Below, in pieces: positions 1,596-9,223 of a DNA stretch of 32,430 nucleotides. The DNA comes from a virus: IMG/VR virus record IMGVR_UViG_3300046171_000054, positions 1 to 32,430 of that record; one strand, given 5' to 3'. Below the pieces are notes generated by a model. It saw only the letters and a list, made by a program, of their open reading frames with translations, ran no database searches and had not been told where the DNA came from. The position numbers and the translations under genes are program-made. The stretch's first letter is position 1, and the number at the start of each line of letters is the position of its first letter.

Positions 1596-2006
1596 TTACA
1601 TTCCAACTTCTTTGTGTTGAACAAACTTATCGTCAAGCACTACGCTCTCTCTTGGCAAGCGATAGCGGTACATGCAGTTGCGCACAGCCAGTACATCTTT
1701 ATCTAATACATCCGCTGCTTGCTCTGGTGTTAAACCATAGTTCAACATCTTGTTTATCTTCATTGCTTGTGGGCTGATCTTTACTTCTGTTTTTTCTTTT
1801 TTCTTTTCACGCCCACGCGCGAGTGCAATCTGTTGGCACTTTTTGCTGCGCTCCATCACATTGCCAGTGTTGCTAGTGTTGATTTGCTTTTCTTGCTTTA
1901 GAGCTTTGAGTTTCATCATCATGGCAACTTCTGATTGGTTTGGCGATCTGCCAAATGCTCGTTTGAAATTGTCTAATGAGATTTCTACGTCTACTACATT
2001 AACCAT
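1596..2006 (-). CDS. Basic protein with probable helix-turn-helix, unknown function
   Basis: Encodes 136 residues with a strong ribosome site (GGAGGAAAAG before the ATG at 2006). The middle is rich in lysine and arginine (RGREKKKEKTEVKIS). The C-terminal half reads AMKINKMLNYGLTPEQAADV followed by LDKDVLAVRNCMYRYRL, a pattern like a two-helix DNA-recognition unit of the resolvase or sigma region 4 kind. It may be a small phage regulator, perhaps acting on late transcription. The family is not identified; the HTH reading is by eye. It overlaps the gene upstream by eight bases. Confidence 0.65.
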   Translation of the reverse strand: MVNVVDVEISLDNFKRAFGRSPNQSEVAMMMKLKALKQEKQINTSNTGNVMERSKKCQQIALARGREKKKEKTEVKISPQAMKINKMLNYGLTPEQAADVLDKDVLAVRNCMYRYRLPRESVVLDDKFVQHKEVGM

Positions 2007-2196
2007 TCTTTTCCTCCGTTAAATCTGTTGCGGCTTTAACAATAGTCATTACAGGCCAGATAAGGCACAAACAAAAGTTTACTGTGTAGTACATTCTGTC
2101 TGGGACTTGTGGCAAACTTCTGCGTCTAGCAAGCATTGTCCTCATTACTTCATAGAACCCGCATACATAAAGGACGATCAGTATTAAGTTCGTCAT
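1999..2196 (-). CDS. Small membrane protein, unknown function
   Basis: Encodes 65 residues with two hydrophobic segments: MTNLILIVLYVCGFYEVM at the N terminus and YYTVNFCLCLIWPVMTIVKA in the second half, joined by a basic loop (LARRRSLPQVPDR). The ATG overlaps the stop of the preceding gene (ATGA at 2193-2196), and its own end overlaps the next start by eight bases, so it is embedded in an operon. Function unknown. Small early membrane proteins of this kind often modify the host envelope or exclude other phages, but nothing here shows that. Confidence 0.6.
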   Translation of the reverse strand: MTNLILIVLYVCGFYEVMRTMLARRRSLPQVPDRMYYTVNFCLCLIWPVMTIVKAATDLTEEKNG

Positions 2197-2381
2197 ATGT
2201 TGTATCCTTTCTTTCTTAGCTCAGACACATAACTCTTTAGCTCTTGTTGAGCTGCATAGATTTCATTGTTTATGCTAGGCCGTGCGTCTGTTCGGTAACG
2301 CTCATCTTGCAGCCGATCTACCTGCTGGCGCAAGTATTTTAATATTCTTTCTGCTTCTGGGTTAAGTTTTGTCGTGTGCAT
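2193..2381 (-). CDS. Small coiled-coil protein, unknown function
   Basis: Encodes 62 residues, almost entirely helical and charged (AERILKYLRQQVDRLQDERY and AAQQELKSYVSELRKKG). This fits a short coiled coil. AGG stands about seven bases before the ATG. It is the first gene downstream of the terminator at 2406-2431, so its expression needs readthrough or a promoter in the short 2382-2405 gap. I see no convincing one there. Function unknown. Confidence 0.55.
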   Translation of the reverse strand: MHTTKLNPEAERILKYLRQQVDRLQDERYRTDARPSINNEIYAAQQELKSYVSELRKKGYNI

Positions 2382-2405
2382 TTAAAAGCCTATTTAGTTA
2401 CCCAT

Positions 2406-2431
2406 AAAAAAAAGCCAGCCCGAAGGCTGGC
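2406..2431 (-). terminator. Rho-independent terminator after the recombination operon
   Basis: GCCAGCC (2414-2420) and GGCTGGC (2425-2431) form a perfect 7-bp stem with a CGAA loop as written on the top strand (TTCG on the bottom). Eight A's at 2406-2413 give a U8 tract on the leftward transcript. It would stop transcription coming from the SSB-like gene and would lower expression of the genes further left. Confidence 0.88.
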
Positions 2432-2473
2432 AGTTTCACCGTGACAGAGGAAATGTAAGGATGTCGCGTGTGT

Positions 2474-2513
2474 TTGTATTATGTTGGATCATATTGGATC
2501 ATACAAGATCAAA
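2474..2513. repeat. Four 10-bp tandem units at the end of the SSB-like gene
   Basis: TTGGATCATA occurs twice with no gap (2484-2493 and 2494-2503). It is flanked by a degenerate copy before (TTGTATTATG, 2474-2483) and after (CAAGATCAAA, 2504-2513). A ten-base period places each unit on nearly the same face of the helix, as in a protein-binding array. The last unit covers the stop codon of the SSB-like gene. It lies between that gene and the terminator. Confidence 0.5.
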
Positions 2514-2904
2514 ATGGAATTTCGTCATTACGATCTTGTGGGCTTGACGGACGTTCTTGTGGGTCGCTGACCTTGAACGCAAGATAAGGTCGATCACCTT
2601 TCATCTGACGCCATGCTGCTACTCGTTTGTTTTTGTGCGGGTCAGTCCATGGCGATTGTTTATCGTCAGTCTTGTAGATCATGCCAGTGTAATCTGGGCC
2701 TGAGTCTTTAGTCTTTTGATTGGGGAAGATAGCACCAATCTTTTCATAGACTTCTAGTATCTCATTGCCATCACGCGATTGACGCTTAACGATTGCAACT
2801 TTTGCATCGCGTCCATCTGCATTGATCTTACCCTGCAAGATAAGTTCCATGTCCTCAAAGGTGCGGAATGTTGCGCCTCTGTTTGTATCATCATATTCTG
2901 CCAT
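2509..2904 (-). CDS. Single-stranded DNA-binding-like protein (DUF736-like)
   Basis: Encodes 131 residues from ATG 2904, preceded by AAAGGAG; the longer frame upstream has no ribosome site and reads through a structured leader. The body has alternating beta-strand patterns compatible with an OB-like fold (KVAIVKRQSRDGNEILEVYE and RPYLAFKVSD). The last residues are DRNDEIPF. An acidic tail ending in a hydrophobic IPF is the hallmark by which SSB proteins recruit partner enzymes. The gene follows an exonuclease and an annealing protein, the expected place for an SSB. The SSB role is inferred from tail and context; the central domain looks closer to DUF736 than to classical SSB. Confidence 0.65.
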   Translation of the reverse strand: MAEYDDTNRGATFRTFEDMELILQGKINADGRDAKVAIVKRQSRDGNEILEVYEKIGAIFPNQKTKDSGPDYTGMIYKTDDKQSPWTDPHKNKRVAAWRQMKGDRPYLAFKVSDPQERPSSPQDRNDEIPF

Positions 2905-2934
2905 GCTTCTGGCTCCTTTATCTAAGTTAAGCGG

Positions 2935-3013
2935 GTGGTTCTTAGGGACACCGCCACCCATCAGTGTTGAAAAACGGAATTGATAAGCTGTAAAGATTCC
3001 GCACCCCTAAGAA
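2935..3013 (-). promoter_or_regulatory. Structured leader with two mutually exclusive hairpins before the SSB-like gene
   Basis: On the top strand TTCTTAGGG (2939-2947) is complementary to CCCTAAGAA (3005-3013), and CGGAAT pairs with ATTCCG inside that loop. A second option, GGGTGG (2935-2940) with CCACCC (2955-2960), uses overlapping bases and cannot form together with the long stem. The leader lies between the ERF stop and the SSB-like ribosome site. It could set relative expression, though no ligand or partner is known. Confidence 0.35.
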
Positions 3014-3448
3014 TTAAGGCCAATTCGACTTCGCTCGAGACTTGGGGGTCTCGCTTGTCGAGTTGGCTTGCATTGTAGTTGCATTGCCATCATCGTCTTC
3101 TGCTGGAAGATTAAGCAATGACATGATGCCATACCTACGAGCATAAGTTATTGCGCTGCCCAAGCCCTGCATATCATTCTTGTTTAGCACAAGCGGTACA
3201 TGAGAACTCAAGTCCCAAGTTGGATCGTCTTCATGCATAATAGTTGTAGATACAAATGAGCCATTCTCACCTGTGAATACTTGCTGACTTAGGAAGAAGC
3301 CATGCTCACTGAGTGGCCCAGTGACAGCTTCGATGCAACCTTCAAGCGTAACGTAACGGCTACGGAAGTGCGGGTTAGTACCTGTCTTAGCGGGTGGCTG
3401 TATTGCCTTACGCGCTTTGATCAATTCGGTTAGGACATTCTTAGTCAT
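3014..3448 (-). CDS. erf: ERF-family single-strand annealing recombinase
   Basis: Encodes 144 residues. The ERF signature is clear: MQGLGSAITYARRYG at residues 93-107, followed by LLNLPAEDDDGN. NPHFRSRYVTLEGCIEAV stands near the N terminus. ERF proteins anneal complementary single strands, here those produced by the adjacent exonuclease, and so promote recombination, circularisation and concatemer formation. AGAGGAA stands upstream of ATG 3448. The start overlaps the exonuclease stop by eight bases, indicating coupled translation. The C-terminal tail is short and polar, shorter than in P22 Erf, as is usual for compact phage versions. Confidence 0.9.
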   Translation of the reverse strand: MTKNVLTELIKARKAIQPPAKTGTNPHFRSRYVTLEGCIEAVTGPLSEHGFFLSQQVFTGENGSFVSTTIMHEDDPTWDLSSHVPLVLNKNDMQGLGSAITYARRYGIMSLLNLPAEDDDGNATTMQANSTSETPKSRAKSNWP

Positions 3449-4220
3449 TCTTTTGGTTCCTCTTGGTTATGCGCAAGGCTCCGCGCTTGTCACGCTTGAT
3501 TGTTAGATAGTCGCAATAAACCTCGCGCTCATTATCTGCGACCATATTCTTCAAGTCTTTCTTTGCATTCTCAAATTTCTTGCTTACTTCAAGACCGTTA
3601 ATGTAGGTGACTGATGCGTCAACGAATGCGTTGTCTTGGCTGGCATCTCGTGCGACCATTTCGTCCAACGGGATTTGGTCGATTGAGATCGACGGTGTGT
3701 CAATAGCAATCGGCTCCTCATTCCGTATAACGTAACCCCAGAAGTCCGACACCACTGCCCACATAGAATTAAAATACTCTTGGTTCCTTTCGACATGAAC
3801 ACTTTCCCAATCACTGTTGCCAAAGATTACTGATAGATATGCGCCATTTGCTTCATTGATGTGCATATATAATTGTAGCTGTGGCATGTAGTATTCTAAA
3901 GCTTTGCTCATGTTGTTGAACGAATTGGTGTGCTTGGCTTCGACAATTGCACCATTCCACATGGCATCAATTGTACCAGCGACAGGCACATTACCTATTT
4001 GTTTTTTAACTTGATACTGGTGGTTTGAGAGTACGCAGTTATGGTGCTTTTCGAACCAATGCAAATTAAAATCTTCGGTATGGATACCTAATTGCACGGC
4101 AAGAACATTTGATAAATCATCTGGTTCTTTGCGGCCTGTCTTTATTTGCCACAAGTCTAACCAATTGCCTTGCAATATTTGGACGCAATCACTGCCTCCA
4201 ATAAAGCCTTTACGCTCCAT
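3441..4220 (-). CDS. YqaJ-like recombination exonuclease (lambda Exo-type PD-(D/E)XK nuclease)
   Basis: Encodes 259 residues. The second of two adjacent ATGs (4220) is chosen because GGAGG lies five bases before it and only two before the first. Motifs: IGGSDCVQIL near the N terminus, an acidic QLGIHTEDFN segment, catalytic GTIDAMWNGAIVEAKH (Asp85, Glu94, Lys96), and MPQLQLYMHI (Gln114, Gln116). This is the YqaJ/lambda exonuclease layout. It would digest one strand from DNA ends and hand 3' single strands to the ERF protein. It is the first gene of the recombination cassette, directly behind the best promoter in the window. Confidence 0.92.
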   Translation of the reverse strand: MERKGFIGGSDCVQILQGNWLDLWQIKTGRKEPDDLSNVLAVQLGIHTEDFNLHWFEKHHNCVLSNHQYQVKKQIGNVPVAGTIDAMWNGAIVEAKHTNSFNNMSKALEYYMPQLQLYMHINEANGAYLSVIFGNSDWESVHVERNQEYFNSMWAVVSDFWGYVIRNEEPIAIDTPSISIDQIPLDEMVARDASQDNAFVDASVTYINGLEVSKKFENAKKDLKNMVADNEREVYCDYLTIKRDKRGALRITKRNQKND

Positions 4221-4242
4221 CATTTCCTCCTTTTATTATGTG

Positions 4243-4268
4243 ATTATACTACTGCATATGTGCAGTAG
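4243..4268 (-). promoter_or_regulatory. Leftward promoter with palindromic operator before the exonuclease
   Basis: On the bottom strand a perfect TATAAT -10 (4243-4248) stands 12 bases before the ribosome site of the exonuclease. Directly upstream is CTACTGCA-TATG-TGCAGTAG (4249-4268), 8-bp perfect arms around four bases, occupying the -10/-35 spacer. The -35 is poor (TTGATG only at a spacing of 20), which suggests weak or activator-dependent initiation. The palindrome is a likely repressor operator. Confidence 0.7.
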
Positions 4269-4270
4269 CA

Positions 4271-4621
4271 TCAAGAAGATTCTTTGATTATGCGCTTGCC
4301 CATTTCGTGCTGCGCTTCTTTTTCTTTGCGAACTTCTTCAGGGTCAGCGATGGCAGAAACATCAGCTAAGAAAGCTTCACGGTGTGGGTCAAGCTGTCGC
4401 TCTGTTAGATAGCCAAACGCAACAAGGGCTGCTGCATTGCGACCCCATAGCCAAGTCTCACTGACCAACTCGCCATTGAGAATGCGCTCGGCATTGATGC
4501 GATAAGAGTCTGGCTCCCATGTTTTGCGACTGCCAAATTCTTTCTTGAGAACTGGGTGCGAACCTCGACCAAGACTTGCACTCCATACGTCAGCTTCTAC
4601 AGCTTTAAATGCTTTCTTCAT
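4271..4621 (-). CDS. Protein of unknown function, 116 residues
   Basis: A soluble, mixed-charge protein. MKKAFKAVEADVWSASLGRG and SYRINAERILNGELVSETWL are visible, followed by a small hydrophobic patch (GRNAAALVAFGYL) and a helical, charged C terminus (DPEEVRKEKEAQHEMGKRII). The start overlaps the preceding gene's stop by four bases (ATGA), so it is co-translated with the HTH_39-like protein. It ends two bases before the operator-promoter of the exonuclease. I recognise no family; an early phage protein by position. Confidence 0.6.
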   Translation of the reverse strand: MKKAFKAVEADVWSASLGRGSHPVLKKEFGSRKTWEPDSYRINAERILNGELVSETWLWGRNAAALVAFGYLTERQLDPHREAFLADVSAIADPEEVRKEKEAQHEMGKRIIKESS

Positions 4622-4821
4622 TCTACAACCTTAAAGTATTCAGCAACACGTTTGCCATTTGGCAATTCGATCATTGTCTTATCTACTGGATAACCTGACT
4701 TTTTTAGATCGCTAATTCGTGAGGCTAAACGAAAACAATCATAAAAATCTAAAGCTTGCCAAGCTGTAATTGTTAAGCCTTTTTCAAGGTGAGCCTTGAT
4801 CATCTTGTTCTGCGATTCCAT
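4618..4821 (-). CDS. HTH_39-like helix-turn-helix protein
   Basis: Encodes 67 residues with GGAGG seven bases before ATG 4821. The pattern MIKAHLEKGLTITAWQALDF followed by YDCFRLASRISDLKKSGYPV is that of the short helix-turn-helix proteins grouped as HTH_39. They are frequent in phage early regions and have a winged recognition helix at FRLASRISDL. It probably binds DNA as a local regulator. It overlaps the end of the nuclease gene by 38 bases in another frame and the next gene by four. Confidence 0.75.
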   Translation of the reverse strand: MESQNKMIKAHLEKGLTITAWQALDFYDCFRLASRISDLKKSGYPVDKTMIELPNGKRVAEYFKVVE

Positions 4822-5143
4822 AACTTTCCTCCATTAATAATTGGAATTGCTCGCCTGTCATAATGACAAGCGTTTGCGGCGTTCCTTTGCGCCGTTTGTA
4901 AAAGGCAATGTCTCTGCCTTCTAATACTGAGAATGGACTTGGGAAGTTTGACTTATCTCTGTACTTTACTTCGCCTATCATTTCCAATCCGTCGATTTCG
5001 ATTTTGATGTCGCCTGAATACTCGCCTCCCAAGCTTCCTGAGAGGGGCTGGCGCTTCGCTTTGATCGGCGCTTTGATTTGGTTGAGCCAATCGACAAACC
5101 ACTTTTCGTGGTAAGTTCCTTTGTTTTTGTTACGGTTTGCCAT
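4784..5143 (-). CDS. PD-(D/E)XK nuclease, Holliday-junction-resolvase-like
   Basis: Encodes 119 residues; GAGGAA precedes ATG 5143. The basic N terminus KNKGTYHEKWFVDWL resembles the first helix of Hjc-type resolvases with its acidic residue (Glu13). Then come SGDIKIEIDGLEMIGEVKYR with Asp45 and the ExK pair (Glu58, Lys60), which complete a PD-(D/E)XK active site. Length matches archaeal-type Hjc enzymes. A junction resolvase fits with exonuclease and ERF as the step that trims branched replication and recombination products before packaging. A non-resolvase endonuclease of the same fold cannot be excluded. Confidence 0.72.
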   Translation of the reverse strand: MANRNKNKGTYHEKWFVDWLNQIKAPIKAKRQPLSGSLGGEYSGDIKIEIDGLEMIGEVKYRDKSNFPSPFSVLEGRDIAFYKRRKGTPQTLVIMTGEQFQLLMEESYGIAEQDDQGSP

Positions 5144-5292
5144 CTATCTTCCTCGTAGCAATGAAGACACACATACCAATGCTTATGCATTGTTTTAGCG
5201 TGATCGTTTCTGAGTATAGCAACAAACCATTCTGTCTTTGTTTCACATGAAACACAGTAAATATATTGCTTACCTTTTTTTGACTTCGACAT
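4978..5292 (-). CDS. Zinc-ribbon protein with long overlap into the nuclease gene
   Basis: Encodes 104 residues from ATG 5292, which lies within the end of the XRE gene (23-base overlap). The first half holds a zinc-ribbon pattern, IYCVSCETKTEW then WYVCLHCYEEDRW (two CxxC pairs). The second half overlaps the nuclease gene for 166 bases in another frame. It becomes serine, lysine and arginine rich with no fold signal, as expected of an unselected shadow or a disordered tail. The zinc ribbon looks real; where the functional protein ends is uncertain. Role unknown, perhaps nucleic-acid binding. Confidence 0.55.
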   Translation of the reverse strand: MSKSKKGKQYIYCVSCETKTEWFVAILRNDHAKTMHKHWYVCLHCYEEDRWQTVTKTKELTTKSGLSIGSTKSKRRSKRSASPSQEAWEASIQATSKSKSTDWK

Positions 5293-5509
5293 CGTAGCCC
5301 AGTGCATCAAGCCAACACATGAGAAAGAAACCAGATGGGATGCGCTTGTGCTGCTCCCACTTATGAATCAATGATTCAGTGCAACCAATCTTATGGGCTA
5401 ATTTTTCTTGGCTTAACCCCTGCTCGTGCCTCGCTTCTACTAACATCTGGATTATCTGATCGTAGTTGCTTGGCAATCGCGGCTGCGTTTTGTCTTCGCT
5501 CTTGCTCAT
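5270..5509 (-). CDS. XRE/Cro-like helix-turn-helix regulator
   Basis: Encodes 79 residues with a complete HTH_3 domain: IIQMLVEARHEQGLSQEKLA then HKIGCTESLIHKWEQHKRIP, ending GFFLMCWLDALGYDVEVKKR. There is no good ribosome site before ATG 5509, and the first 40 residues lie inside the end of the 5391-5675 gene in another frame. Translation may therefore be coupled or start later, at the ATG of QMLVEA. It is a likely transcriptional regulator of the early region and, with its HTH neighbour, the natural candidate to bind the CTGCAT palindromes nearby. Confidence 0.75.
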   Translation of the reverse strand: MSKSEDKTQPRLPSNYDQIIQMLVEARHEQGLSQEKLAHKIGCTESLIHKWEQHKRIPSGFFLMCWLDALGYDVEVKKR

Positions 5510-5675
5510 AGATGGCGTCTAAAACTTTACTAGCTGTATCAAATCTAAGTTCAGTCCTCATGCTTATAGTTCTATAATACGTTGAGGATGGGATGTCAGC
5601 TACGCGGAACGCCTTTACTAGATCAACGTTCCGCTTGTCTGATTCTTCTTTTAGATATTGCAGATATGATTTCAT
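5391..5675 (-). CDS. Helix-turn-helix repressor-like protein, probably leaderless mRNA
   Basis: Encodes 94 residues. The N-terminal part, SYLQYLKEESDKRNVDLVKA then FRVADIPSSTYYRTISM followed by ELRFDTASKVLDAI, has the order of a small repressor-type HTH with the recognition helix around SSTYYRTI. There is no ribosome site: a palindrome ends two bases before the ATG. A TTGACG/CATACA pair spaced 17 bases would start the RNA at the A of the ATG. Leaderless repressor mRNA is known from lambda cI. The C-terminal third, in the overlap with the XRE gene, is low in structure. Repressor function is inferred. Confidence 0.65.
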   Translation of the reverse strand: MKSYLQYLKEESDKRNVDLVKAFRVADIPSSTYYRTISMRTELRFDTASKVLDAIYEQERRQNAAAIAKQLRSDNPDVSRSEARAGVKPRKISP

Positions 5676-5676
5676 A

Positions 5677-5710
5677 CTGCATGTATGCAGCTAAAAATCT
5701 ATCTCGTCAA
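5677..5710 (-). promoter_or_regulatory. Putative leaderless promoter and operator of the HTH gene
   Basis: CTGCAT-GT-ATGCAG (5677-5690) is a perfect 6-bp inverted repeat that matches the core of the operator at 4249-4268 (CTGCATATGTGCAG). On the bottom strand TTGACG (5705-5710) and CATACA (5682-5687) are separated by 17 bases. They predict a transcript beginning at 5675, the first base of the ATG. The -10 matches the consensus at only three positions. Confidence 0.5.
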
Positions 5711-5888
5711 CCTCGTCAGTTTCGCCTGACCCATGACAAGCCCAACACTCTTTGGTGTATTCTTCTAAGCTTGGCGGTGAGTCACGAGATACCCATGGCT
5801 CGGGTCGCTCATATGTGAGAGTGCCATCGCCCAGACATTCTGGGCAATGTACTTTTTCAGTACGGTATTTCGTCTTCAATCGGTGCAA
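5691..5888 (-). CDS. Small zinc-binding protein with DnaJ-type CxxCxGxG motifs
   Basis: Encodes 65 residues. Two DnaJ-like motifs are seen, CPECLGDG at residues about 15-22 and CWACHGSGE at about 48-56. These four cysteines would bind one zinc ion. No ATG precedes the first motif. TTG 5888 is chosen because GGGAGG lies nine bases before it. The acidic end (DEVDEIDF) is followed at once by the operator of the HTH gene. It overlaps the previous gene by 32 bases. Such small proteins are frequent in phage early regions; function unknown. Confidence 0.65.
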   Translation of the reverse strand: MHRLKTKYRTEKVHCPECLGDGTLTYERPEPWVSRDSPPSLEEYTKECWACHGSGETDEVDEIDF

Positions 5889-6048
5889 GGTTTACATCCT
5901 CCCATGCTTTCCAAGATCGTTGCAAAAACTTCTTGCGATCAAATCTTGGATTAGTTTTTTCGAGCGCATCGGCTACAGTTATGTGCGCTTGCGGCGATAG
6001 CTGTGGCCCGATGGTATCTGCGATTAATATGAAATCTTTACGAGTCAA
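5857..6048 (-). CDS. Small early protein, unknown function, TTG start
   Basis: Encodes 63 residues. The start is TTG 6048 (MTRKDFILIADTIG), because AAGGAG (6056-6061) stands seven bases upstream; longer forms have no ribosome site. Helical segments TRKDFILIADTIG, HITVADALEK and FDRKKFLQRSWKAWED are seen, and the end is acidic (IEDEIPY). The TRKDF-LIAD opening recurs in small proteins of many phages, but I know of no assigned function. It overlaps the DUF932 gene end by 11 bases. Confidence 0.65.
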   Translation of the reverse strand: MTRKDFILIADTIGPQLSPQAHITVADALEKTNPRFDRKKFLQRSWKAWEDVNLAPIEDEIPY

Positions 6049-6868
6049 ACTCAAACTCCTTACTGCGCATTGCTGATGCAATCGCTGCTTCTCTGTTATA
6101 CTTTGCAGTGTGCGGTGAACGCAGGTCTTGGGTGTGTGTAGCCCAGTACGTTAGCGTGTTGTACAACGCCCACTTGTTGCGCCCTAGTTCACGACACTCG
6201 CCAGCCCAAATCTCAAGCAACTTTTCTAGCTGCTTCTCGTTTGTCTTGGTGACTTGCGTTTGGCGCGTGAACGCCTTGGCTACTGTGTTCTTGAAGAACT
6301 TCTCAGCCATTGGCGTGGTCACTGTTGTCATCATGTATGACTGCCACACTTCTTTGCGTGACATGAAGTGATCCAATCCATTGACGATCTTGGCTGCGCT
6401 GCCCTCAACATTGATAGACGTTGTGTGCTTGTATCGTGTACGAGCCACAGCATCGGCTGTTGTGCAGCCATTCAAGCAAAAGAGGCGAAGCCCACTGGCT
6501 GCTTGTGAGAATGACCAAGAAGCATCATAGCTATTGAAAAAGTCAACTTTGAACTGAACGTAATCGCCAATAGTAGGCTCAATCTTTAGGTCATTAAATA
6601 GAATTTGACCTCGAAGCTTACGACCATTCTCTAAAACTTCTACGTCTACAGTGTAGTCACGAGACAAGTCTGCCTGTGTTACGCTGTCTACAACGGAGTT
6701 TACTACATCGTCATGCGTTACCATCTTGTAACGTGAGCCATGAACACCAAGCGATTGGTTGGTATCAGTTCTGACTACATGTTGAGAGCCATCAATTGGC
6801 TCTCCATGCATGTCATACACTGGCTGCATTTCCACTGGGAACTCCCAGCTATTGGTCATATCAAGCAT
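6038..6868 (-). CDS. DUF932 family protein (phage/plasmid-like, TIGR03299 type)
   Basis: Encodes 276 residues. The second ATG (6868) is chosen, five bases after GGAGG. Typical features are the opening of the domain VVRTDTNQSLGVHGSRYKMV, the central FFNSYDASWSFSQAASGLRL then FCLNGCTTADAV, and a helical C terminus ending in a tract with LYNTLTYWATHTQ. DUF932 proteins are common on plasmids and phages, often next to recombination and replication genes, and their biochemical role is unknown. Its place in the leftward operon next to the ERF cassette follows that pattern. Confidence 0.85.
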   Translation of the reverse strand: MLDMTNSWEFPVEMQPVYDMHGEPIDGSQHVVRTDTNQSLGVHGSRYKMVTHDDVVNSVVDSVTQADLSRDYTVDVEVLENGRKLRGQILFNDLKIEPTIGDYVQFKVDFFNSYDASWSFSQAASGLRLFCLNGCTTADAVARTRYKHTTSINVEGSAAKIVNGLDHFMSRKEVWQSYMMTTVTTPMAEKFFKNTVAKAFTRQTQVTKTNEKQLEKLLEIWAGECRELGRNKWALYNTLTYWATHTQDLRSPHTAKYNREAAIASAMRSKEFEFDS

Positions 6869-7079
6869 CATTTCCTCCGACTACTTGTATTTGTACTGGG
6901 CTATCCAGCACTTCTTCTATTTCAATTAATACTTCGATCATGCGCTTGGCTTGATCTAATGATATGGGGAATGTCACATCTGGCATTTCCACGTTAGATT
7001 CCTGAACTCTTGGGGTCAGGTTAGCTATCATCATATTGATTTTGTACAGCTGCTTGGCTGACGCTGGCATGGTAAACAT
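6861..7079 (-). CDS. Small helical early protein, unknown function
   Basis: Encodes 72 residues. ATG 7079 is chosen: its A is shared with the stop of the previous gene (TAATG), and GGAGG stands eight bases before it. Sequence features: SAKQLYKINMMIANL at the N terminus, then VTFPISLDQAKRMIEVLIEI and EEVLDSPVQIQVVGG. Two helices with a strand seem likely. The opening resembles the SAKQ...I motif of small DNA- or RNA-associated phage proteins, but I assign nothing. The last bases overlap the start region of the DUF932 gene. Confidence 0.65.
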   Translation of the reverse strand: MFTMPASAKQLYKINMMIANLTPRVQESNVEMPDVTFPISLDQAKRMIEVLIEIEEVLDSPVQIQVVGGNDA

Positions 7080-7312
7080 TATGCAATCCTCCACATGTGA
7101 ACGTATCCATCAACGATGCGTGAGGCTGCTTTGAACCCACGTTTTTCCATGCATTTTCTAAGATAGCCAGCTTGGCCTTTCTTATGTAATTTAATGCAAT
7201 CTCCGACTTGCATTACATCTAATGCGCTGTCGAATTTAGAACCTTTCTTACCGCCATTGTTACCCCATTGGCGTTCAGGCATTGGTAGTCCACGGATTAG
7301 TGTTGCTGGCAT
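7079..7312 (-). CDS. Small basic protein, DUF7303-like
   Basis: Encodes 77 residues, with GGAGG seven bases before ATG 7312. The region KKGSKFDSALDVMQVGDCIK followed by KRGFKAASRIVDGYVHMWRI follows a pattern seen in short phage proteins: an opening SKFDxxxVMxVGD segment, then an Arg/Lys-rich helix, then a final strand ending W-R-I/V. It may bind nucleic acid as it is basic and ends in an aromatic strand. The family name is given from memory of the pattern, so treat it as tentative. Confidence 0.6.
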   Translation of the reverse strand: MPATLIRGLPMPERQWGNNGGKKGSKFDSALDVMQVGDCIKLHKKGQAGYLRKCMEKRGFKAASRIVDGYVHMWRIA

Positions 7313-7658: not shown

Positions 7659-8192
7659 TTATGCTCGTTTCTTCTTAGACTTAGGTGTTTCAACTAGGTC
7701 ATTCGCAACCTCAGTCGCGATGCCCATCATCGCATCCATGTCTAGTAACTCTTGCGGAATGTCGACCTCCTGTTGAGGGACGTTCTGCGATCCGTAATGA
7801 TAACCGACAGGCGCACCATACGGTGCATAGTGCTCGCCATATGCATCGAACCATGCGGCTTGCAAGTCTCGGTACATCTCGTCAAGTTGTTCGTGTTTGT
7901 ACTCGGCGGCTTGGGCGGCTCCGAATGAGCCACGTATCCGCTGCGTACTGATCTCAGTACCATCGAACAACTTGCGATCTGCCTCGTAACGCTTCTTCTT
8001 GTTGGCAGCGTTGACTTCTGTGTCGATGCCATTCTTGCCGCCATAGCGTAGGAAGTAGAGGCCATCCATCATCTTCTCCATCATTACCTTGCGTACGAAG
8101 CCCATCTCATCGTGCGGCAAGAAGTCTTTAGTCTCGTAATCAAAACGGTCGTACTCGAAGCTAAGTTCATTAATCATTGTAGCGATAGTCAT
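7659..8192 (-). CDS. Protein of unknown function, first leftward gene from the control region
   Basis: Encodes 177 residues. ATG 8192 is preferred over 8198 because GGAG lies seven bases before it and only one before the other. The N-terminal half is acidic and helical (INELSFEYDRFDYETKDFLP and FVRKVMMEKMMDGLYFLRYG). A basic strip (NAANKKKRYEADRKLF) and a tyrosine-rich segment follow (YGEHYAPYGAPVGYHYGSQN). The end is lysine-rich (TPKSKKKRA). It has its own terminator, and its wording looks more G+C rich than its neighbours, so it may be expressed and acquired separately. No family recognised. Placed next to a candidate origin, it might be a replication-related protein; this is only positional. 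Confidence 0.6.
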   Translation of the reverse strand: MTIATMINELSFEYDRFDYETKDFLPHDEMGFVRKVMMEKMMDGLYFLRYGGKNGIDTEVNAANKKKRYEADRKLFDGTEISTQRIRGSFGAAQAAEYKHEQLDEMYRDLQAAWFDAYGEHYAPYGAPVGYHYGSQNVPQQEVDIPQELLDMDAMMGIATEVANDLVETPKSKKKRA

Positions 8193-8278
8193 TTTCATTC
8201 TCCTATTTCTATCGTTTCATACACAGTCTTCTATGTATGCAGATAGGTCAGCCATAAGGATTTATGCTCAGTCAACGA

Positions 8279-8350
8279 CGACACATCTCGCATGTGTCGC
8301 CAGCTTGCTGGTGAGCGGCTACGTTGCGTCAACTTGCTTGACGCTACGTT
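8279..8350. repeat. Three consecutive hairpins
   Basis: CGACACAT/ATGTGTCG (8279-8286 with 8292-8299), CCAGC/GCTGG (8300-8304 with 8307-8311) and GCGTCAA/TTGACGC (8326-8332 with 8338-8344) are three perfect inverted repeats within 66 bases, with loops of 5, 2 and 5 bases. The third is built from two inverted copies of the TTGACGC(A/T)ACGT motif (8321-8332 on the bottom strand, 8338-8350 on the top). No T-run follows, so these are not simple terminators. Confidence 0.6.
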
Positions 8351-8497
8351 CAAAGCCATCGTTTACTTAGCATAAATACGGTGGCCCAACTGGAAGTTAT
8401 AATTCATAGATTGTGTGTGATAGAGAGATACATCTGTGACAAGGTGTGGTCGCGCACAGGTACTATGGCTTACTCGCAATGGCATAAAGCGATTGAG

Positions 8498-8641
8498 CTT
8501 TGCCTAAGCAAAGTCATTAGCGGTATGCGATTGCCCAAGCTAGACATGGAAGCGCGATCACGGCGCGGAACAGATATGCATGTGGAATGCCACAAGGCGC
8601 ACAGTATTCACCATGCTTGGGCAAAGAGGGGTCAATCCCCT
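8498..8641 (+). ncRNA. Candidate structured RNA or DNA element
   Basis: Four separate pairings are visible. CTTTGC-CTAA-GCAAAG is a tetraloop hairpin at 8498-8513. TTGCCCAAGC (8531-8540) pairs with GCTTGGGCAA (8615-8624) over 10 bp and continues after a 5-base bulge with ATGG/CCAT (8546-8549 with 8611-8614). Inside is TGTGG-AATG-CCACA (8581-8594), and after it AGGGG-TCAAT-CCCCT (8627-8641). A nested arrangement like this is more than expected by chance from gene-free DNA. The strand is uncertain; it could also be folded single-stranded DNA at an origin. Confidence 0.4.
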
Positions 8642-8652
8642 GTTTGTTCAAA

Positions 8653-8682
8653 TGACGCAACGTCACTTTGATAATGACGTAG
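8653..8682. repeat. TGACGCAACGTCA palindrome with adjacent half-site
   Basis: TGACG-CAA-CGTCA at 8653-8665 differs from the 7545-7559 palindrome only in the central base and the outermost pair. A half copy, ATGACGTAG, follows at 8674-8682. It is part of the family described at 7545 and 8321-8350. Confidence 0.55.
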
Positions 8683-8721
8683 GGTAACAGCTTGACACAG
8701 TATTGACAAAAGACGCAGTGT

Positions 8722-8753
8722 GGGGGGGATCATAGGGGGGGCCATACAGAGGG
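8722..8753 (+). other. G-quadruplex-forming stretch
   Basis: Two runs of seven G's (8722-8728 and 8735-8741) are separated by ATCATA and followed by a GGG (8751-8753). Splitting each run as GGG-G-GGG gives four G3 tracts with loops of 1, 6 and 1 bases, a compact quadruplex pattern on the top strand. It lies 96 bases before the TerS start. Such runs are absent from the surrounding sequence except a shorter GGGGGG-T-GGGG after the TerS stop. Confidence 0.55.
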
Positions 8754-8800
8754 TACAGTTTCTCCCCCAGTATAAAAAAACCATAGTGCAGTGCAGTATA

Positions 8801-8835
8801 GTACAAGGGTGTTAGTGCTACATTGTACAAGAGTG
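8801..8835 (+). repeat. Direct repeats just before TerS
   Basis: GTACAAGGGTG (8801-8811) and GTACAAGAGTG (8825-8835) match at 10 of 11 positions with a period of 24 bases. An overlapping AGTGCAGTGCAG run stands just before at 8786-8797. Repeated sites close to the small terminase gene are the usual recognition sites for TerS (pac or cos). This is a positional inference. Confidence 0.4.
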
Positions 8836-8848
8836 AACAGGACTATAG

Positions 8849-9223
8849 ATGGCTGTAGAAACTAGGAAATTGACCGATAAACAGTTGGCTTTAGTGGATA
8901 CGCTTGTAGCAACTGGGTGTACGGTAAGGCAAGCTGCTGAATCCGCTGGCTATGCTCAAGGCGAATCAGGAAGGGTAAGTGCATCCAAGGCTTTAGCTCA
9001 ACCACATGTGCAACAGTATATGATGCAGAGGGTGAGTGAACAGTTGGGAATGAACGCTACTGTGGCTGCTGCTAAAGTCCTAAAGCTTGCAACAGGTGCT
9101 AGATCAGAGCATGTTCAGCTTGAAGCTAGTAAGGATATTCTAGATCGCGCTGGGTTTAAGCCTATAGATAGATCACAGGTGCAAGTTGCTGGAGACATCA
9201 AAGTTTCTATCGACCTTGGCTAA
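8849..9223 (+). CDS. terS: Terminase small subunit
   Basis: Encodes 124 residues; CAGGA stands seven bases before ATG 8849. The N-terminal helix-turn-helix pattern is clear: LTDKQLALVDTLVATG then CTVRQAAESAGYAQGESGRV, followed by ALAQPHVQQYMMQR. This is the layout of terminase small subunits, which bind the packaging site. The helical middle (MNATVAAAKVLKLATGARSE then LEASKDILDRAGF) would oligomerise. The C terminus DIKVSIDLG may contact TerL. It is the first rightward gene and is separated from TerL by seven small genes, unusual as they are normally adjacent. Confidence 0.8.
   Translation: MAVETRKLTDKQLALVDTLVATGCTVRQAAESAGYAQGESGRVSASKALAQPHVQQYMMQRVSEQLGMNATVAAAKVLKLATGARSEHVQLEASKDILDRAGFKPIDRSQVQVAGDIKVSIDLG

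Follow-up and report, generated by a model that had tools for sequence, protein, structure and literature searches.

Transcribed immediately after an early promoter, the nascent putRNA leader of phage HK022 makes the polymerase resistant to terminators. This phage RNA, located near early promoters, works through its fold and needs no protein (PMC9378689). Prohead RNA (pRNA) of the phi29 family, for which four natural junctions have been compared (PMC5340915), is likewise phage-encoded and combines a closing helix with a hairpin junction, while GOLLD, ROOL and OLE represent large, structurally conserved bacterial non-coding RNAs derived from sequence comparison (PMC12286853). Long structured RNAs are also found in a replicon control region in the case of ColE1 RNA II and RNA I, where the primer RNA forms a hybrid with DNA and is processed to prime replication.

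The RNA described here lies in a gap between opposing gene blocks of a 32,430-base virus record from IMG/VR, which was analysed at its full length and is referred to as the window. It resembles pRNA in its closing helix and hairpin junction; however, its core is about twice as long, it has a second, rod-shaped domain and a 16-nt invariant linker, it adjoins a classical terminase, and it shows no sequence match in Rfam. It shares the vicinity of early promoters, here presumed ones, with HK022 putRNA, but put elements are short and belong to early transcripts, whereas the plus strand reads away from the early genes here and a presumed promoter precedes the next gene. The likeness to ColE1 RNA II and RNA I, which extends to a possible role without an encoded initiator protein, is by analogy only, and no RNA I is recognised at this locus. 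As for GOLLD, ROOL and OLE, structural conservation was found by comparing sequences, yet this RNA is smaller, is found only in one phage family and lacks an Rfam match. In fact, the window does not reach the gathering threshold of any curated Rfam 15 family, positions 8150–8900 gave no match up to an E-value of 5, and 15 related loci gave none. A text search that reached few subscription journals or bioRxiv items found no paper describing the element, and a preliminary description of this DNA knew of no described element with the shape it proposed. The RNA is regarded as a new family within the known kind of structured non-coding RNAs of phages and is assigned to no named family. It adds a large uncatalogued RNA with a conserved fold to a common uncultured phage group whose nearest isolate infects Pelagibacter.

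Genomic setting and sampled relatives

The leftward block encodes a YqaJ/RecE-like exonuclease, an ERF annealing protein, an SSB-like and a RusA-like protein and a DUF932 protein, and the rightward block begins with the small terminase (8849), followed by the large terminase (10836) and a head-tail connector (Table 1). The place of the RNA between leftward recombination genes and rightward packaging genes is constant. The proteins scanned, including those of the leftward block, contain no recognisable polymerase, helicase, primase or initiator, and neither tRNA nor tmRNA genes were found. By large terminase, the nearest isolate is Pelagibacter phage EXVC031P Hodr (65% identity).

Searches of IMG/VR with the terminase and the first gene returned loci with the same gene order, some of whose gaps contain the 16-mer GCCCAACTGGAAGTTA, and a scan of IMG/VR for this 16-mer returned 73 stretches. 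On the basis of flanking similarity, 44 distinct sequences were retained from these stretches, the earlier loci and the window, and the RNA element is common to all 44. In a fourth clade (L085 type), domain A is different while the linker and rod are the same. A relaxed linker pattern allowing other ends of the 16-mer recovered no further members, only chance matches in coding sequence, and related DNA was not found in isolate phage and plasmid records.

Table 1. Features in and around the gap, in window coordinates
Feature	Positions	Strand	Remarks
Gap between opposing gene blocks	8199-8848		separates leftward and rightward genes
Leftward block	1599-7312	-	exonuclease, annealing protein, SSB-like and RusA-like genes
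Weak candidate promoter of the plus-strand RNA	8220-8247	+	TACACA 8220-8225, 16 bases, GATAGG 8242-8247
Domain A	8251-8385	+	folds; compensatory changes; covariance model R1 118 bits on plus
P1 closing helix (27-28 positions)	8251-8255/8381-8385 and 8260-8278/8359-8377	+	encloses inner hairpins
Inner hairpin	8279-8286/8292-8299	+	window-type only
P2a, short hairpin	8300-8303/8308-8311	+	
P2b, long hairpin	8321-8332/8338-8349	+	
Linker	8384-8431	+	unpaired in most folds; GCCCAACTGGAAGTTA, then TTGTGTGTGA and AGAGAGAT
Domain B rod	8432-8575	+	z -6.15 alone; conserved outer stem and apical hairpin
Rod helices	8432-8437/8570-8575, 8447-8455/8552-8560, 8467-8471/8537-8541, 8476-8480/8530-8534, 8482-8486/8524-8528	+	
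Apical hairpin of rod	8498-8503/8508-8513	+	CTAA hairpin of the preliminary description
Variable 3' part	8576-8641	+	ends in hairpin AGGGG-TCAAT-CCCCT (8627-8641); terminator-like; possible transcript end
Presumed -35 TTGACC of leftward promoter	8630-8635	-	inside final hairpin
Presumed -35 TTGACA of rightward promoter	8692-8697	+	preceded by TGACGNNACGTCA repeats

Fold, covariation and strand

The predicted RNA consists of a two-domain core of at least 325 bases (8251–8575, plus strand) and a lineage-variable 3' part extending to about 8641. Folding of 8251–8641 yields -147.6 kcal/mol (z -4.67) and two domains. The preliminary description had confined the element to 8498–8641, boundaries which split domain B; the conserved element is larger and begins about 250 bases further left. 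The four pairings it named are all present in the sequence: a perfect 10-bp stem (TTGCCCAAGC 8531–8540 with GCTTGGGCAA 8615–8624, 74 nt between the arms), the CTAA hairpin CTTTGC-CTAA-GCAAAG (8498–8513), a TGTGG/CCACA pairing (8581–8594) and a final AGGGG/CCCCT hairpin (8627–8641). As a conserved fold, only part of this set holds, namely the CTAA hairpin, which caps the rod, and in some relatives the final hairpin. Positions 8498–8641 fold with -54.7 kcal/mol (z -3.28), and 1 of 200 dinucleotide shuffles is equally good; the best fold of this stretch alone uses a 13-bp stem (8498–8510 with 8614–8626) that is mutually exclusive with the 10-bp stem. Of the relatives with this 3' part, L081, L095 and L136 keep seven, four and seven of the ten pairs of the shorter stem, and 11, 11 and eight of the 13 pairs of the longer one. 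This loss of pairs rules out the 10-bp stem as a conserved element and leaves the 13-bp alternative unsupported as a conserved switch. The proposed shape built on the 10-bp long-range stem, which is also absent from the 8251–8641 fold, was thus wrong. The compensatory changes sought in that stem are found instead, on both sides of pairs, in the helices of domains A and B.

In three clades of relatives, the plus strand forms the long closing helix P1 of domain A, whose 3' strand ends at the 16-mer. The letters of this helix differ almost completely from clade to clade (the window has ATTTATGCTCAGTCAACGA, clade G2 GATTAATGCAAGGAT and clade G3 TTAAATTTGGGCTTAGTCA), yet 21–26 of 28 positions pair in nearly all rows, the exceptions being L101 and L164 (12 of 28), whose rows are both displaced by one base. 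Across domain A, 94% of the compared cells pair and 18 pairs are altered on both sides. In a corrected alignment of 25 sequences, P1 has standard pairs in 419 of 461 cells, as opposed to 129–197 for slid versions and at most 350 for shuffles, with changes on both sides in 12 of its 19 pairs; P2a and P2b reach 119 of 125 and 272 of 275 cells, and due to the shared ancestry of the relatives, such counts of cells, like those of gaps given below, overstate the number of independent events. The automatic alignment of all clades together had misplaced the P1 arms, and the register was corrected before counting; clade G2 was moved one column by hand according to its own fold, which somewhat favours structure. 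A check independent of this hand-set register is provided by covariance model R1, since it was built from clades G1 and G3 only: it finds the omitted clade G2 with 66–84 bits (E-values of 1e-13 to 1e-18), whereas 61 matches of the 16-mer in cellular genomes, which are due to chance, score at most 23 bits.

GCCCAACTGGAAGTTA (8384–8399) is identical in all members found. Downstream of the linker, 8430–8575 folds with -62.6 kcal/mol (z -6.15), a value matched by none of 200 shuffles. The outer stem of the rod is paired in all compared sequences, with double changes, and the apical hairpin is nearly invariant (AGCTTTGC-NNAA-GCAAAGT or close variants). The feature kept by the relatives is this rod with the CTAA hairpin at its tip. 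Single lineages (L081/L082; L133) carry extra hairpins within the rod, as expected of an RNA tolerating peripheral extensions.

The three counted helices of domain A contain 49 G.U cells and no A.C cells. A strand-neutral count over domains A and B, restricted to isolated interruptions lying between pairs that are predicted for both strands, gives 24 G.U versus 4 A.C contexts, and a cruder group-wise count agrees (37 versus 12 columns); in the strand-neutral count, neither the upstream hairpin nor the 3' part favours one strand. Because G.U far exceeds A.C, the plus strand is taken as the functional strand of domains A and B. The 96-codon frame that had been noted across the region does exist (8381–8671), but it is open only in the window, 1 of the 44 sequences, which argues against conserved coding and rejects it as a protein gene. 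The original suggestion of a structured RNA rather than a gene is borne out by compensatory changes that keep helices across divergent relatives, by the strand comparison and by the lack of a conserved reading frame. Both the existence and the strand of a structured RNA are well supported by these comparisons, and the probability that the gap encodes a discrete, structured non-coding RNA on the plus strand is put at about 0.88, a figure which covers its identity and not its role.

Such folding extends beyond the sequences carrying the 16-mer. The mean fold z of 30 gaps of terminase relatives is -6.3 on the plus and -4.7 on the minus strand, and the plus strand folds lower in 119 of 128 distinct gaps upstream of a conserved G-rich box. 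Only 33 of these 128 gaps contain the 16-mer, and the other 95 show 103 G.U versus 29 A.C contexts. Since the plus strand folds better and the G.U excess holds even in gaps without the 16-mer, a plus-strand structured RNA appears to recur almost throughout this phage family. Its sequence has been replaced repeatedly, and so, probably, has its detailed fold, although a fold occupies the same place across most sampled branches. In some large-terminase relatives (L062, L080) the tested stretch does not fold unusually well, and the apical hairpin motif is equally frequent on both strands of gaps without the 16-mer and hence uninformative. The equivalent gap of phage Hodr (L227) contains a long closing stem, TTGCCAATGTAATAACTAG ... 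CTAGTTATATTGGCAA (3620–3745), which has no sequence similarity to the window.

Possible roles and competing explanations

The RNA would probably be transcribed on its own. Read rightward from near 8250, at the foot of helix P1, the transcript would pass through domain A, then the conserved linker, which stays unpaired, and the rod of domain B, and would probably end near the hairpin at 8641, acting as a folded molecule rather than a message. Due to its position and the lack of recognised replication proteins, it is tentatively proposed, as the most likely role though at less than even odds, to control the adjacent start region, either by priming or licensing replication by host enzymes or as an early/late switch, in which case it would act at divergent promoters. 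The lack of a recognised replication protein fits this role and does not show it; DnaA boxes are not enriched, and any link to replication would be indirect. A ColE1-type primer RNA would be in line, again indirectly, with the same lack and with the G-rich box downstream. In a broader and rather doubtful version, a whole family of marine podovirus-like phages would replace a replication protein with a fast-evolving structured RNA, invariably read rightward out of this gap, that starts or licenses replication with host enzymes, which, if true, would represent a phage counterpart of the ColE1 RNA II strategy. The RNA offers a testable lead on the way small phages that lack recognisable replication genes begin to replicate or set the timing of their genes.

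The main rival to control of the start region is antisense regulation of the leftward early operon, in which the plus-strand RNA would pair with the leader of that operon; it is considered possible, if somewhat less probable than the proposed role. A transcript from TTGACC (8635–8630) would carry a leader of about 400 nt fully complementary to the RNA, an overlap which follows from the layout, and the TTGAC element on the minus strand recurs in relatives. Fast divergence that preserves structure is common in antisense pairs. However, both partners usually must fold, and the near absence of A.C mispairs, which would be G.U on the minus strand, weakens this explanation. The same wobble counts point to the plus strand against a minus-strand leader controlling translation of the first leftward gene and contradict it for domains A and B, the upstream hairpin and 3' part being unbiased. 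Such a leader is highly improbable, even though roughly half of the relatives allow pairing, with letters that co-vary, between the complement of that gene's ribosome site and a segment immediately ahead of domain A (TCCTTATG/CATAAGGA, TCCTATA/TATAGGA).

The location upstream of the terminase genes, together with the junction of a long closing helix and two or three hairpins in domain A, would also suit a packaging or virion RNA that, like phi29 pRNA, serves the terminase or procapsid. Yet phi29 uses a different packaging ATPase, while this phage has an ordinary large and small terminase, and large terminases at least 85% identical accompany unrelated gap sequences, which makes a packaging role unlikely. 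Less likely still is a fold of plus-strand single-stranded DNA, acting as an origin for lagging-strand synthesis or conversion at which host primase would be recruited. The gap coincides with a switch of gene direction and GC skew, and DNA, too, accommodates G.T more readily than A.C; on the other hand, such a size, so many helices and an invariant unpaired linker are more typical of RNA, and the scanned proteins include no recognisable rolling-circle initiator.

Ends and flanking signals

Both ends of the RNA are placed provisionally by weak promoter and terminator signals. A T[AG]CACA-N15-18-GATNNN pair lies directly ahead of P1 in most relatives and may represent a weak promoter of the plus-strand RNA, although it matches a sigma-70 promoter poorly. 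At the opposite end, some of the relatives retain the final hairpin, in which a compensatory change turns AGGGG/CCCCT into AGGTG/CACCT; a T-run follows the hairpin in L095 and L136 but is absent in clade G2. An inverted repeat is located at 8209–8247, ahead of the first leftward gene.

At the position of 8630–8635, TGTCAA or GGTCAA is present in most relatives, including those without this RNA sequence, and divergent TTGAC elements with TGACGNNACGTCA repeats between them (8630–8697) recur in relatives. These elements and repeats are probable divergent promoters with shared operators. The distance from TTGACA to the G-rich box is constant in about 55 sequences. This box reads GGGGGGGATCATAGGGGGGG in the window (8722–8741) and also occurs in about 120 related contigs, in most relatives as the nearly invariant GGGGGGAGAGAGGGAGAGGGGGG; it lies ahead of the small terminase gene. 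It is a candidate end-cutting or packaging site, quadruplex-prone transcript start or replication primer site, the last of which has a model in the mitochondrial origin (PMC6317783). Several contigs (L005, L043, L072 and L104) start or stop within the box, which may reflect a genome end or merely an assembly break at G tracts.

A second small motif, ATACYCACC-loop-GG..AGAC-hairpin-TTCATGRGTAGC, is found in the gaps of L117, L120, L008, L285, L299, L347 and L020. It occurs with or without the main RNA and shows a compensatory-looking change from ACTCA/TGAGT to ACCCA/TGGGT.
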